A stretch of DNA of 51,664 nt, taken from the NCBI GenBank assembly GCA_016936155.1, contig JAFGPO010000154.1, positions 1-51,664 of the forward strand, given 5' to 3'. The notes beneath the pieces were generated by a model. That model ran no database searches and had not been told where the DNA came from. It saw nothing but the letters and a program-made list of their open reading frames with translations. Within the stretch, counting starts at the first letter, position 1. Each line of letters opens with the position of its first letter. Of the stretch, positions 7,682-24,206 are shown piece after piece. Position numbers and translations under genes: made by a program. This DNA is from Caldifarciminota bacterium. GTDB taxonomy: Bacteria > Hydrothermota > Tepidihabitantia > SM23-42.

Positions 7682-9082
7682 ATGGCACACAGTTGCGAAA
7701 GCAAGGATTTCCGGGAGTCGCCTCACGCCGGAACCTGGTACCCGGGCACTGAACTTGAACTCCGTCAGCAGATCACCACATTCTTGGATAATGTAGAACT
7801 GCACATCACAGGTGAGATCTCCGGTCTGGTATCCCCCCATGCCGGATATATATATTCGGGTCCGGTGGCGGCATATGCTTACAAAATGATACAGGACCAG
7901 ACGTTCGATAATGTTGTCGTGATCGGACCGAGCCACCGCTACGGATTCATCGGTGTCTCGGTCGATACCATGGCAGGACGGATAACCCCGCTGGGAACCG
8001 TTGATTTCGATGTCGATCTGGCGCGTGCGATCATCGCATGCGACAAGCATATCAAATATGATCCCCGCGCTCACAGCGAAGAGCATTCAGTTGAGATCCA
8101 GATACCGTTCCTCCAGATCGTGCAAAGAGAATTGCATCTTGTCGAGATCGTCATGGGTACACAGGATATGGAAACATGTACGATGTTGAGCAACGCCCTT
8201 GTTAAGGCGTGCAAGGGAAAAAGGGTACTGCTCATAGCAAGCAGCGATCTGTCGCACTTTCACACCCAGGATGTTGCCGAGGAACTGGATAACCGGATCG
8301 TCGAAGCGGTCTCGCAGTACGATTACCAGATGTTGTTCAACCGTTTGCGTACTGATAGCTGCGAAGCATGCGGGGGCGGTCCGATCATCACGGTCATGAT
8401 GGCGACAAAGGAGCTCGGTGCAACGGATTCCAAAATGCTACACTATGCAACGAGCGGTACGGTCACCGGAGACTATTCGCAAGGCGTTGTCGGCTATCTC
8501 GCCGCTGTATTCTATAAAGCACATGACGCTGATGTCGGCATTGATCTCGGTTTCTCTGATTCCGAAAAACAGCAACTCAAAGACATTGCCCGGCGATCGA
8601 TCGAGGCAGCGGTCAAAGACAAAGAACAGCCGGAATTCAAAAATATGACCGGCAAACTCCTCGAGCCCTACGGCGTATTTGTCACGCTCAACAAACACGG
8701 CAATCTGCGCGGATGCATCGGGCGGATCATTGGTGACCAACCACTTTACCTGTCATGCCAGCAGATGGCGATCGCTGCGGCGCTCGAGGACCCGCGCTTT
8801 AATCCCGTGCGGAAGGATGAACTCGATGACCTCACGATCGAAATCTCGATTCTCACGCCTCCGGAACGCATCACTGATTTTTCCAAGATCACGATCGGTC
8901 CGGACGGTTTGATCATCAATAAGGGGTATAACCGGGGTCTGCTCCTGCCGCAGGTCGCGGTTGAATACGGATGGACCGCAGAAGAATTCCTCGAACAAAC
9001 GTGTCATAAAGCAGGGCTTCCTTCAAACGCGTACAAATCGCCGGATGCAGAGGTTTTTAAATTCTCGGCTGAAGTTTTTTAG
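7682..9082 (+). CDS. AmmeMemoRadiSam system fusion protein: Memo (AmrB) + AMMECR1 (AmrA)
   Basis: Memo: SPHAGYIYSGPVAAYAY, VVIGPSHRYG, EHSVEIQIPFLQ; AMMECR1: GVFVTLNKHGNLRGCIGRI, ALEDPRFNPV; SD TAGGAG before ATG 7682. Confidence 0.92.
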   Translation: MAHSCESKDFRESPHAGTWYPGTELELRQQITTFLDNVELHITGEISGLVSPHAGYIYSGPVAAYAYKMIQDQTFDNVVVIGPSHRYGFIGVSVDTMAGRITPLGTVDFDVDLARAIIACDKHIKYDPRAHSEEHSVEIQIPFLQIVQRELHLVEIVMGTQDMETCTMLSNALVKACKGKRVLLIASSDLSHFHTQDVAEELDNRIVEAVSQYDYQMLFNRLRTDSCEACGGGPIITVMMATKELGATDSKMLHYATSGTVTGDYSQGVVGYLAAVFYKAHDADVGIDLGFSDSEKQQLKDIARRSIEAAVKDKEQPEFKNMTGKLLEPYGVFVTLNKHGNLRGCIGRIIGDQPLYLSCQQMAIAAALEDPRFNPVRKDELDDLTIEISILTPPERITDFSKITIGPDGLIINKGYNRGLLLPQVAVEYGWTAEEFLEQTCHKAGLPSNAYKSPDAEVFKFSAEVF

Positions 9083-14843: not shown

Positions 14844-14871
14844 ATTATACCTAACAACCCAGGCAATACAA
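14844..14871 (-). promoter_or_regulatory. Promoter TTGTAT-N16-TATAAT, ATG 5 nt downstream; -35 region lies in the GGC array
   Basis: Minus strand reading. Confidence 0.6.
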
Positions 14872-14904
14872 GGCATTAAACGGCAATTCAGGGCAGCATG
14901 TCTT
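14862..14904. repeat. 10-bp GGC-phased array, 4 units
   Basis: GGCAATACAA GGCATTAAAC GGCAATTCAG GGCAGCATG. Confidence 0.7.
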
Positions 14905-14956
14905 CAGGGACGAACCCGGTGACTTTAATCCGCCGCAAGCGGATGTGTCTCCGTCG

Positions 14957-14992
14957 CCCTACGCTCTACGCATTACGCCTTACGCTCCTTCT
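14957..14992. repeat. 7-bp quasi-tandem repeat (TACGCNN)
   Basis: CCCTACGCTCTACGCATTACGCCTTACGCTCC. Confidence 0.75.
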
Positions 14993-19424: not shown

Positions 19425-19979
19425 TTACAAACCCCCGAGCGTACTCAGAGGGACCTTTGCTTTGCATAAAGGGCAGTTTGCAGGATCGAAGTTCTCAACG
19501 GTCCTGGCATAGGTGGCGTAATACTCGAACGGCATCTTCCCGGTACTGCGGTCGATCAAAACCGCAGCACCGGCCACCCGTGCGCCTTTTCCCTTGACCG
19601 CATCGAGCGTCTCAACAAGGGATTTACCGGTCGTCATGACGTCATCAACGATCAACACCGTCTTGTCGTTGATGTCATATCCGCGCCGGATCATTCGTTT
19701 TCCATCGTATTCCTCGGCAATGCCTGTGCGCGCGCCCATTTGCCGGGCGACCTCAAAGGCGATCACAATGCCCCCGCTGGTTGGACCGATCACCCACTCG
19801 ATGTGAGCGTCCTTGAAATGATCGGCGATCATTGCGCACAGTGTTGACGTCGCCTCGGGATTTTCCAGGATGCGGAATTTCTGGAAGTAGTACTTGCTGT
19901 GCAGGCCGGAATTGAGGAGAAAGTGTCCTTCCTGCAGAACCTTCAGATCTTTAAGCATTTGTTCTAAGTCCATCTTCAA
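19425..19979 (-). CDS. pyrE: Orotate phosphoribosyltransferase
   Basis: VLIVDDVMTTGKSLVE PRPP motif; LNSGLHSKYYFQK. Confidence 0.95.
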   Translation of the reverse strand: MKMDLEQMLKDLKVLQEGHFLLNSGLHSKYYFQKFRILENPEATSTLCAMIADHFKDAHIEWVIGPTSGGIVIAFEVARQMGARTGIAEEYDGKRMIRRGYDINDKTVLIVDDVMTTGKSLVETLDAVKGKGARVAGAAVLIDRSTGKMPFEYYATYARTVENFDPANCPLCKAKVPLSTLGGL

Positions 19980-20688
19980 TCTCCTGTAGTATCTTCTCGG
20001 CCGCCTCCTTTGGTGATGCAGCCTTTACGATCGGCCTGCCAATGACCATGTAATCGACACCGGCCTTGACCGCTTCTTTCGGGGTCATAACGCGCGCTTG
20101 ATCATCCGATTCAACGAGTGAATGTGCGGGCCGGATCCCCGGTGTCACGATCAGCAAATCCTTTCCGCACGCCTTGCGGATGTGCGTCACTTCCTGGGGT
20201 GATGCTACGACACCGTCCAACCCAGCACTGCGCGCCAGTTGCGCGAAAAATACCACCTGTTCTTCAAGGCTCCGCTGGATATCGCCGAATAGGTCTTTGA
20301 AGTACGCTTCGTCGATGCTTGTCAGCACGGTAACACCGAGCAGTTTCGGGCGAGGTATTTCCTTGATATCCGAAACCATGAGTGTCGCCTTCACGGCTTC
20401 CTCAAGCATGGAAAATCCGCCGCTCGTATGCAGGGTGATACAATCAACGCCCAGTTCCATCGCGCCCTCGCATGCGCGCGCCACTGTATTCGGGATATCA
20501 TGGTACTTCATGTCAAGCATAACCTTGAGCCCGCGGTCTTTCAAGAACCGGATCAGGTCCAGGCCGAAATAGATGAACGGTATCGGTCCTACCTTATAGT
20601 ACTGCACAAGACCGTCAAGGTCATTGACCAGCTTCTTAATTTTTTGCAGATCGTTCAGATCCAACGATACGATGATTTTATCCGTCAT
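19951..20688 (-). CDS. pyrF: Orotidine 5'-phosphate decarboxylase
   Basis: IIVSLDL, MLDMKYHDIPNTV, VTPGIRP, DYMVIGRPIVKA. Confidence 0.94.
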   Translation of the reverse strand: MTDKIIVSLDLNDLQKIKKLVNDLDGLVQYYKVGPIPFIYFGLDLIRFLKDRGLKVMLDMKYHDIPNTVARACEGAMELGVDCITLHTSGGFSMLEEAVKATLMVSDIKEIPRPKLLGVTVLTSIDEAYFKDLFGDIQRSLEEQVVFFAQLARSAGLDGVVASPQEVTHIRKACGKDLLIVTPGIRPAHSLVESDDQARVMTPKEAVKAGVDYMVIGRPIVKAASPKEAAEKILQEIEDGLRTNA

Positions 20689-20700
20689 TTCATTCCTTTC

Positions 20701-20800
20701 AGAAGGCTGTGAGAGGGCTATGACAGGGCGAAGAGATGGCTTGATAAGGCGGATATAAGACTCGAGAAGAATCAGATGTCAGAATAGGGCGAAAACAGCT
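20701..20800. repeat. Left array: 10-11-bp GGC-phased units beginning AGAAGGC
   Basis: GGCTGTGAGAG GGCTATGACAG GGCGAAGAGAT GGCTTGATAA GGCGGATATA... Confidence 0.85.
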
Positions 20801-20805
20801 GAACA

Positions 20806-21225
20806 TCATTTATTCTCCGATGATCTTCTAAGTCGATCTATAAGATACATTGTTTTAATCGCGAGGTCAGTAAATTCTTCGTACAATCCATCCAGAATGT
20901 AACCCTTCCGACTAACTCGCCGTACCCTTTCACGTAATTCACCAAGAGACCGTTTACTATATCTAAGGAATTTCAGATATTCAGGTATTGAACCACTATA
21001 GTATCCCTCTACAAAATTTGCACCTACGGAATCCGAAGCATTGTCGATCTGTGATCTCATTTTGACTTCAAAACGAGGTATCTTTTTCAAGATCTTCTGC
21101 ACAATGATATCCAGTTTGTCCATATTCTGCCAGACGATCATCTTTTCGTGTCCGCGCGGTTTGTTTCTTCCTGCTTCCTGCGCCTGGTTGCGCCTTTTCC
21201 TGCCCTCTTCATCCTCTTGTTTCAC
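20806..21225 (-). CDS. Four helix bundle protein (23S rRNA intervening-sequence protein/S23, Avd-like); core start may be 21141
   Basis: MRSQIDNASDSVGANFVEGYYSGSIPEYLKFLRYSKRSLGELRERVRRVSRKGYI. Confidence 0.85.
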   Translation of the reverse strand: MKQEDEEGRKRRNQAQEAGRNKPRGHEKMIVWQNMDKLDIIVQKILKKIPRFEVKMRSQIDNASDSVGANFVEGYYSGSIPEYLKFLRYSKRSLGELRERVRRVSRKGYILDGLYEEFTDLAIKTMYLIDRLRRSSENK

Positions 21226-21281
21226 GCCTTCTTTTGCCCTCTATGCCTTGTTAAGCCCTTTCCTGCCATCTCCTGCCTTCT
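21165..21281. repeat. Right array: GCC-phased units (inverted relative to the left array)
   Basis: ...GCCTTCTTTT GCCCTCTAT GCCTTGTTAA GCCCTTTCCT GCCATCTCCT GCCTTCT. Confidence 0.85.
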
Positions 21282-22113
21282 TCCCCCTTCTTAAGAAGCT
21301 TTCCAGTTCCTTGATAATGGCAATCGGTGCTTCGGGATCGCGCAGCATCGCGCTGCCTACCGCTACTGCGGACGCGCCGGCAAGGAGGAACTCGTACGCA
21401 TCCTGACCGGTCATGATGCCGCCCATGCCGATGATCGGCACGCCGATATCCCGGATGCGGTTCACGCAGTACAGGGCAAACGGCTTGATCGCAGGACCGG
21501 AAAGACCGCCAATGATCAAAGGCTTGCCTGAGCTGGTATCATACGCCATGCCGTAGAGCGTATTGATCAGGGATATCCCGTCCGCGCCTTTATCGACACA
21601 CATCCTGGCGACGCGCAGCGGATCACAAAAATTAGGGGTTAGTTTAACGATGACCGGGCATTTTGTTTTTTTGCGGACTCCCGCGACGATCCGGCCCACG
21701 ATGTCCGGATCCTGACCGAATGCCGCACCGCCTTCCTTGACGTTCGGGCAGGACACGTTGAGCTCAAATGCGTCGACGCGGTTCCCGATGCGCTCCACGA
21801 TCTCAATATACTCGTTGACACTGAAGCCTGCAACATTGGCGATCACCCGCGTCTTGAGTTTCGCGAGCCCGGGTATGATATGAGCACAGAACGCATCGAC
21901 ACCCGGATTTTCCAGACCAACCCAATTGATCAATCCGCCCGGCGTCTCATAGATCCTGGGGGGCGGATTTCCTTCCCGGGGTTTGAGCGTGATGCCTTTT
22001 GTTATCACGGCGCCGACCGCATTGGAGATCCGCTGGTACTTCAGTCCGAAACCGAATACGCCGGACGCGGTGAACACCTCATTTTTGAACGCGATGCCGA
22101 ATATCTTAACCAT
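21241..22113 (-). CDS. pyrD: Dihydroorotate dehydrogenase catalytic subunit; C-terminus runs into the right array
   Basis: FELNVSCPNVKEGG, KLTPNFCDP, GLSGPAIKPFAL, GMGGIMTGQDAYEFLLAGASAVAVGSA. Confidence 0.95.
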   Translation of the reverse strand: MVKIFGIAFKNEVFTASGVFGFGLKYQRISNAVGAVITKGITLKPREGNPPPRIYETPGGLINWVGLENPGVDAFCAHIIPGLAKLKTRVIANVAGFSVNEYIEIVERIGNRVDAFELNVSCPNVKEGGAAFGQDPDIVGRIVAGVRKKTKCPVIVKLTPNFCDPLRVARMCVDKGADGISLINTLYGMAYDTSSGKPLIIGGLSGPAIKPFALYCVNRIRDIGVPIIGMGGIMTGQDAYEFLLAGASAVAVGSAMLRDPEAPIAIIKELESFLRRGKKAGDGRKGLNKA

Positions 22114-22858
22114 TGAACTCTATCCCGCTCAAATCGAACACCGGACCATCCTCGCAAATGCGCTTGTACACGCCGCGGTACCGGATCGCGCACCCCAGGC
22201 AGAGCCCGCACCCGCAGCCGAGGAAATCTTCGCAAAAGGCATACACGGGGACCGGAAGTTCCATACGCTGCAGCGCAACGAGCATAGCGCGCGGTCCGCA
22301 CGCGTACGCGCATTCATACTCCGGAGCAAACCATGCCTTCAGTTCCTGCAGCACCGTACGCGGTTTTTTCATTCCCTTCTCAGCAACGAACGCGCACGCA
22401 TCGCTCATTTTCCGTATTTCTTTAGTCAGAACGAGATCGCGTGCATGGCGCGCGCCATACAGGAATGCGAACGGCGCGTTTTTTTTCTTTAAGTGCTGCG
22501 CAACGAACAAGAGCGGCGCAACCCCGATGCCGCCGGCAATGATCAGACTCCGCTTGCGTGCCGGCACGATGCCATGACCAAACGGCCCCAGGAGCGTTAC
22601 TTCTTCTCCTGGTTCTTTTTCGCTCAAGAGCCGCGTTCCCCGGCCGACAATACGCACGACAAGACGCAGTATACCACGCTCGTACTGAGCAGCACTGATC
22701 GGACGATTCAGGAACGGATCAAGGCTCGCACCAAGTCGAACCTGAAAGAACTGTCCAGGCATAAGCCGGGTCAATGGCACCCGGACCGAAAAACTAAAAA
22801 TATCAGGGGAATGCCATGTCTTTTGTTGTATCCTTGTCTTATGGCTCAATCGGCTCAT
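22106..22858 (-). CDS. pyrK: Dihydroorotate dehydrogenase electron transfer subunit (ORF open from 22903)
   Basis: PGQFFQVR..DPFLNRPISA, GGIGVAPLLFVA, CEDFLGCGCGLCLGCAI. Confidence 0.93.
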   Translation of the reverse strand: MSRLSHKTRIQQKTWHSPDIFSFSVRVPLTRLMPGQFFQVRLGASLDPFLNRPISAAQYERGILRLVVRIVGRGTRLLSEKEPGEEVTLLGPFGHGIVPARKRSLIIAGGIGVAPLLFVAQHLKKKNAPFAFLYGARHARDLVLTKEIRKMSDACAFVAEKGMKKPRTVLQELKAWFAPEYECAYACGPRAMLVALQRMELPVPVYAFCEDFLGCGCGLCLGCAIRYRGVYKRICEDGPVFDLSGIEFNG

Positions 22859-24206
22859 CGTGCATATCGGGTGTTTCCGTCTCCTCGTTTTCCTGTGAAC
22901 CATCCCATCCCATTAAAGTCCGGGCACTCAGCGCGTACTCGGTTCTCGGGTACGCTTGCGTCAGTAATTGCGCACATTCCCGCGCAATACTGTCGTTTTT
23001 GATCACGGTATGGTTGATCCAGAAGCGCGCGTACAGCGCCTTCGGCGCCCAAATGCTTGCCGGAAAGTCCTTATAAACCTTCCGGTATTCTTGAGACGCA
23101 CGATCCGGATCATTGAAATCTATGTAGTATATCTCCGCCCTCATGAACTGCGCCCGGTCCAGGTCTTCGCTCTGTCCAGCAAGAAGGTTTATGCGCCGCA
23201 GGACCTCGGCCATTTTTTTCGCCTTTGATCCATATTCACTGATCGCAGACCTGTACAGCGCTGAATCATAGTGGACGATCGCCATGTCCAGGCTGTCCTG
23301 GGCACGATAGAGCTCTGCGAGTTGGAAAAATGCCTGGGCCGCGATATCCGAGAACCCGCTCACCGCAACCTCAAGGTAGATCTCTTTTGCTTTCAGCGTA
23401 TCACCGAGCGTTGCGGTAAGCTCAGCAAAAATATTCCTGAATTCCGGATCGTATTCGCCCTCGAGGAAATCGCGGCATTTCGCGTACTCGCCCATCGCAA
23501 GGTAAATTTCCGCGATCCGCAATTTTAATGCTTGTTTGTCATCCGGCATACTGGTGAGAGACAGCAGTTTGTTGTAGGTTTCAAGCGCGTCATCGAACAA
23601 TTCCTGCTGGAACTGCGCGTCACCGAGGATGCTCAGAATCCACCGACGTTCCTCTCTATTCAAATGTTCCTTCATCATCTGCCCTGCGGCGGCGGTCAGA
23701 TCCGTGTAATTTTTTGTCGCAAAATATGCCTGACAGAGAACGAGCCCGGCCCTGCTGCGAAACGGTTTGAACTCCTTTGCTTCTTTGAGATCAATCACTG
23801 CCTGGCCGTATTTTTGCTCCTTGAAGTACGCAAGTCCCCGGTAGTACAGCGCATCATCATAATATTTGGAATCGGAATAATTATAGAGAATATAGTCCAA
23901 TTTCTCAAGCGCGCGGGCATAATCACCTTTGTAATAATAGCTCACTCCCATCATAAAGAGCGCATCATCGACATACCTGGAGTGTGGGTACTTCACGATA
24001 ACCGAGGTCGCTTTTTCGATCGTCTTGTCAAAATTCTCGGAATCAACCTTTAAGGTATCGTTGGTGACGGTTTTTTTTGCTTCCCGAAAATAGTGCTGCG
24101 CATTGTAAAAGGTATTGAAGTAGGCGCAACTAATCCATAGAACCAATGGAATCAACACTAATAACCGGCGGCAATTCTTCCGTGTAAGTCCAGATCTAGT
24201 TATCAT
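22839..24206 (-). CDS. Tetratricopeptide-repeat outer-membrane lipoprotein (BamD-like)
   Basis: Lipobox-like LWISCAYFNTFYNA; many TPR units. Confidence 0.8.
   Translation of the reverse strand: MITRSGLTRKNCRRLLVLIPLVLWISCAYFNTFYNAQHYFREAKKTVTNDTLKVDSENFDKTIEKATSVIVKYPHSRYVDDALFMMGVSYYYKGDYARALEKLDYILYNYSDSKYYDDALYYRGLAYFKEQKYGQAVIDLKEAKEFKPFRSRAGLVLCQAYFATKNYTDLTAAAGQMMKEHLNREERRWILSILGDAQFQQELFDDALETYNKLLSLTSMPDDKQALKLRIAEIYLAMGEYAKCRDFLEGEYDPEFRNIFAELTATLGDTLKAKEIYLEVAVSGFSDIAAQAFFQLAELYRAQDSLDMAIVHYDSALYRSAISEYGSKAKKMAEVLRRINLLAGQSEDLDRAQFMRAEIYYIDFNDPDRASQEYRKVYKDFPASIWAPKALYARFWINHTVIKNDSIARECAQLLTQAYPRTEYALSARTLMGWDGSQENEETETPDMHDEPIEP

Follow-up and report, generated by a model that had tools for sequence, protein, structure and literature searches.

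The window analysed here is the whole stretch of 51,664 nucleotides (contig JAFGPO010000154.1) from a Caldifarciminota bacterium, whose genome (G000) is a 2.49-Mb draft assembly, 86% complete. The gene order on the minus strand is pyrK, pyrD, a gene for a four-helix-bundle (FHB) protein, pyrF and pyrE. The FHB gene is flanked by two inverted arrays of a short motif, referred to here as the arms, and the features of the locus are as follows.

22106–22903, minus strand: pyrK-like electron transfer subunit, the operon gene upstream
21241–22113, minus strand: pyrD, dihydroorotate dehydrogenase, with its final ∼15 codons encoded by the 5′ arm
20701–21281, minus strand: whole element, arms and gene, mobile as a unit, with putative ends (20 of 21 relatives have no FHB gene here; same arms with a homologous gene elsewhere)
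21180–21281, minus strand: 5′ arm, in transcript sense a purine-rich GGC array, overlapping the 3′ end of pyrD and the 5′ end of the FHB open reading frame (ORF)
20806–21225, minus strand: FHB gene (PF05635 / TIGR02436), 139 amino acids as called from GTG, a putative start
20701–20752, minus strand: 3′ arm, in transcript sense five GCC, the inverted form of the 5′ arm, stopping just upstream of the pyrF start
19951–20688, minus strand: pyrF, orotidine-5′-phosphate decarboxylase, the next operon gene
19425–19979, minus strand: pyrE, orotate phosphoribosyltransferase, the operon gene downstream

With all genes on the minus strand, the unit separates pyrK–pyrD from pyrF–pyrE and keeps their orientation, as stated in the original prediction for this DNA. 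Read in transcript sense, six GGC in the 5′ arm are spaced by 10, 10, 10, 9 and 10 nt and five GCC in the 3′ arm by 10, 11, 11 and 11 nt. Both arrays were located where they had been predicted; the upstream array had been drawn too short, as more GGC follow beyond a 24-nt break, to about position 21180. The predicted match between the outer ends, AGAAGGC/GCCTTCT, is present and closes the element. The 5′ arm is also coding sequence, supplying the final ∼15 codons of pyrD and, with the start as called, the N-terminal residues encoded by the FHB ORF.

The arrays were assessed with a combined statistic, which adds the best trinucleotide chain at 9–11 nt on one flank to the chain of its reverse complement on the opposite flank. 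The window element scored 11, and none of 300 dinucleotide shuffles scored above 7. A search of the window for four GGC at 10 nt, with one mismatch allowed, gave four matches where 0.36 were expected; three of these represent the 5′ arm and the fourth a separate array at 14862–14894. Three apparent array remnants (GGCAATT at 10 nt, a GACACG/CTTCAG hairpin unit and an ACGC array) were seen at 14857–14990, a gene-free intergenic region between divergent genes. The window element had no match in Rfam.

The FHB protein

Assignment of the ORF to the four-helix-bundle family of 23S rRNA intervening-sequence proteins (IVP) was confirmed by matches to Pfam PF05635 (23S_rRNA_IVP; E = 4.6e-16, 59.4 bits, cut-off 33.8) and TIGR02436 (E = 3.7e-15, 56.1 bits, cut-off 24). 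The AlphaFold2 model is a confident four-helix bundle (pLDDT 93.7), for which the nearest structures identified by Foldseek were 2gsc and 2rld of the S23 family (TM-score of 2gsc to the query 0.74–0.79), followed by Avd of diversity-generating retroelement (DGR) complexes. The predicted protein is basic, with a pI of 9.86. Identities at codon positions 1, 2 and 3 were 0.75, 0.85 and 0.41, and the gene is therefore under protein-level constraint. Its conserved core spans about 20845–21147; in-frame stops in some homologues fall mostly outside this core, and within it only in L292 and L296. To our knowledge, no function has been established for stand-alone FHB (S23/IVP) proteins.

Avd, which is part of the DGR ribonucleoprotein, has the same fold (PDB 4dwl and 8ub7, TM-score about 0.69). 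However, the window element has inverted arrays as arms and lies in a genome without a reverse transcriptase. RVT_1 was absent from G000 (86% complete) and from most FHB-rich relatives, including the four single-contig, FHB-bearing assemblies G002, G004, G018 and G020. Retrohoming of the DGR type through a resident enzyme is therefore unlikely, and a resident reverse transcriptase is not required for the persistence of the element.

Occupancy of host junctions

The original prediction called for a comparison with empty sites. No FHB gene was present at the pyrD–pyrF junction in 20 of the 21 relatives in which this junction was readable, and in most relatives the gap measured −4 to 66 nt. The sole relative with an FHB gene at this position, G007, has a distantly similar one with AAATTC/GAATTT arms, while G009, G006, G012, G015 and G002 carry a gene-less inverted short-period hairpin of another motif. 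These data identify the FHB gene as inserted DNA, and the junction as a recurrent target. No target-site duplication was established for the window element, and no same-genus relative supplied an empty site.

The location inside the pyr operon, and the hairpins at the same junction in several relatives, would also fit a domesticated regulator, in which FHB protein and hairpin serve pyrimidine regulation. This is highly improbable, as the gene is missing there in most relatives, the FHB protein of G007 is from another subfamily and the operons that hold close homologues are unrelated to pyr.

The junction downstream of a MazG-like gene was found to hold an FHB gene with TCGT arms, an FHB gene with CGGTTGCG arms, DUF559 genes or gene-less repeats, or to be empty. 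Two DUF559 reading frames at this junction, joined by hand from translations, match PF04480, and a DUF559 family search also places DUF559 genes at such sites. DUF559 nuclease genes with palindromic repeats share this junction and the sense orientation with FHB elements; however, their flanking repeats are mostly direct, whereas FHB arms are inverted, and DUF559 cargo was rejected as the same type of element on this ground. DUF559 genes with direct palindromic CTCACCCT-type flanks were additionally seen at L183, L186, L207 and L329–L358, some of them at one shared junction. At the apt junction, the site of a close homologue of the window protein, the FHB gene was absent from all eight other genomes read; by eye, same-genus (g5) genomes mostly have short, relic-like GGC or GCC stretches there rather than clean empty sites.

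Joint inheritance of arms and gene

Nine proteins closely related to that of the window (64–75% identity) are encoded at other host sites, among them acyP–apt, lysS-like/lolC-like, nuo-like, bioY and acyl-CoA-dehydrogenase sites (genes named by eye); two, L291 and L292, share a type of host gene and are perhaps not independent. GGC/GCC chains at 9–12 nt were present on both sides in all eight homologues with a complete or near-complete gene, and on one side only in the ninth, L297, in which the gene is partial. The arrays of L295 are hugely expanded. Across non-orthologous sites the mean arm cosine rose with protein identity, from about 0.2 below 50% to 0.41 at 60–70% and 0.65 above 70%, and arm similarity was correlated with protein identity where host flanks were unrelated (Mantel r = 0.244, P ≤ 0.001). 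That gene and arms are mobile as one unit is well supported by these data.

Arms were also found without a gene. In the genome from which the window derives, a gene-less GGC/GCC hairpin lies downstream of sucD (named by eye; L390 1420–1552, contig C117 of G000 near 8616), and the final codons of sucD are array sequence. Set against shuffles, this hairpin folded better than most (z −2.27). Dispersed TCGT heptamer arrays were observed in G006 (L360, L370, L378 and L385) and its relatives; G006 gave 62 TCGT array matches, none with the reversed control pattern, and has only five FHB genes.

Arrays around FHB genes

Co-occurrence of arrays and FHB genes, as proposed in the original prediction, was investigated in a clade set of 102 non-redundant FHB loci, with tests and thresholds devised with the data already in view. 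The inverted arm score had a median of 19 for own partners and 11 for non-cognate pairs; relative to mismatched pairs, 66 loci lay above the 95th percentile and 34 above the 99th, whereas in direct orientation only six of the 102 passed the 99th. About a third of the loci had no arms above the 95% cut-off, some having other hairpin arms and others none. Another arm type, tandem small hairpins with CTGAAGACACG-like linkers, was seen at the FHB genes of L002, L013 and L026.

In a stricter test a four-letter motif had to be chained at 7–11 nt on one side of the gene and its reverse complement on the other. This was passed by 31 of the 102 clade FHB genes and by none of 193 control genes, all from one relative. 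The window element fails this four-letter test and passes a three-letter version only. An unbiased 400 kb of sequence from G002 contained just three arrays that passed the strict test, none enclosing a gene. Forty of 79 FHB loci passed in a diverse set, picked by similarity to one FHB subfamily and covering Planctomycetota, Acidobacteria, Bacteroidota, Chloroflexi, cyanobacteria, CPR bacteria and others. Cultured isolates are represented in this set, for example Mastigocoleus testarum, whose FHB gene has flanking arrays. The 5′ arm was purine-rich in 39 of 39 diverse and 49 of 56 clade elements.

The period of the arrays is specific to the element, at 7, 8, 9, 10 or 11 nt, with harmonics. A uniform 10–11-bp phasing with the DNA helix as a general rule is thereby ruled out; the spacing of 10–11 nt noted in the original prediction is a trait of this subfamily. 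Where both neighbours agreed in direction, with genes called by a simple ORF rule, the clade FHB genes had the same orientation as their neighbours in 78 cases and the opposite in two; the bias was weaker in the diverse set (52 same, nine opposite). No array-positive clade locus combined a divergent gene upstream with a co-directional one downstream. This bias speaks for a role of, or selection on, the RNA, or for reliance on promoters of the host.

These results also bear on a DNA-level regulator, in which the FHB protein would bind helically phased GGC sites on both sides of its gene, one DNA turn being 10–11 bp, and act as an autoregulator or a regulator of the operon. A basic protein, a spacing of 9–11 nt in the window and the co-travel of motif and protein lineage are all compatible with this. 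We nevertheless consider it decidedly unlikely: other FHB elements have periods of 7, 8 or 9 nt, the arms lie behind or between genes in sense orientation rather than at promoters, and the upstream gene is nearly always co-directional, which DNA-level binding would not need.

RNA pairing and folding

The predicted pairing of the arms in the transcript was examined with duplex and whole-element folds. The duplex of the window arms was modestly more stable than expected by chance, at −75.9 kcal/mol compared with −65.7 ± 5.4 for shuffles, 6 of 200 of which were equally good, whereas the whole window element folded no better than dinucleotide shuffles (z −0.98). Over the elements studied, cognate arm duplexes had −55 kcal/mol and mismatched partners −42 kcal/mol. 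Pairing was not confined to one register, shifts by at least one period often being almost equal, so the arms could be arrays that share a motif instead of a maintained stem. A strand-specific comparison of G·U and A·C mismatches, made to detect selection on the RNA, was contradictory, the clade set favouring G·U (P = 0.007) and the diverse set A·C (P = 0.006).

Arms with a common motif but no fixed register would also arise neutrally, if slippage produced short-period arrays, template switching between quasi-palindromic arms kept them alike and the FHB gene were an ordinary mobile gene lying between them by chance. The many gene-less arrays agree with this, as does the huge expansion possible in L295. 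A neutral product should not, however, be confined to FHB genes in the strict test (31 of 102, as opposed to 0 of 193 controls), have a motif that tracks the protein clade at unrelated sites or keep a constant purine polarity, and this explanation appears unlikely.

Discussion

The feature in the window is probably a mobile element of mRNA operons resembling the 23S rRNA intervening sequences (IVS), and a member of a widespread family of small elements. The original prediction of a compact, IVS-like mobile unit in a protein operon agrees with the absence of the gene from nearly all relatives, with arrays specific to FHB genes, with the co-travel of arms and protein lineage and with the sense orientation. 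Three findings had been named in advance as counting against it: an armless gene at this locus in all relatives, arrays not specific to FHB genes and a lack of pairing between the arms. None of these was observed.

Gene-less forms of 23S rRNA IVS exist, and G008 (L142) has a 23S hairpin, about 120 nt long, that contains no gene. FHB genes inside the 23S rRNA of the clade were considered and rejected, as the insertions of about 660 nt in G010 and G013 (L146 and L147) encode proteins that are LAGLIDADG-like by eye and have no FHB match. Large-subunit rRNA matches were fragmented or shortened in several relatives (G002, G005 and G011). The 23S rRNA IVS of Coxiella burnetii has an S23/IVP ORF between complementary ends and is cut by RNase III (PMC4990558), and IVP ORFs have also been reported from 16S and 23S inserts in CPR bacteria (PMC11270868). 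The window element resembles such IVS in having an FHB ORF between flanks that are inverted and may pair, in its sense insertion into a transcript and in its scattered, probably horizontally acquired distribution. However, it lies between protein genes of an operon and not in rRNA, and its arms are degenerate short-period arrays with an element-specific motif, in contrast to the near-perfect 28-bp stem of the IVS. The element thus has the look of an IVS, and may act as one does, yet its place outside rRNA means that it is not an IVS.

Two types of gene-less repeat invite comparison. REPIN and MITE-type repeats are dispersed, gene-less inverted repeats with fixed palindromes and an association with transposases. 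The dispersed gene-less TCGT arrays of G006 are similar in this respect, but FHB arrays are short-period and the gene associated with them is a non-catalytic FHB gene and no transposase. Heterocystous cyanobacteria have STRR heptamers that form hairpins between operon genes and were described without an FHB gene (PMC2670836). These 7-nt repeats are like the gene-less hairpins found here; the window element differs in its period of 9–11 nt, while other FHB elements have a period of 7. At two Nostocales loci (L234 and L238) heptamer arrays surround an FHB gene.

By analogy with rRNA IVS, the purine-rich 5′ arm would pair with the 3′ arm in the pyr transcript, giving a long hairpin, imperfectly matched, whose loop would contain the FHB message. 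This stem may be cut, probably by RNase III, or may shield the flanking messages, which would make the insertion cheap for the host. A basic FHB oligomer would bind its own type of arm, and so motif and protein would stay together.

The data suggest that FHB genes with inverted short-repeat arrays form a class of element found in many bacterial phyla and inserted in sense between, or just behind, operon genes. They also suggest that the known rRNA intervening sequences are part of a larger, mostly unrecognised class in ordinary operons. More tentatively, there could be bacteria-wide mobile elements of mRNA operons in which each FHB protein recognises the motif and period of its own arms, with rRNA IVS, gene-less operon hairpins and perhaps the cyanobacterial heptamers as special cases; FHB proteins might then be RNA-hairpin-recognition proteins of evolvable specificity.

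No paper on the association of FHB genes with inverted arrays was found in the open-access literature searched. Arrays whose motif changes with the protein provide a partner for the stand-alone FHB proteins, and the association offers a testable pairing code across many phyla. It also suggests a reason why uncultured bacteria have degenerate 7–11-nt inverted arrays between their genes, and the larger pool of operon elements is a possible origin of the rRNA intervening sequences.
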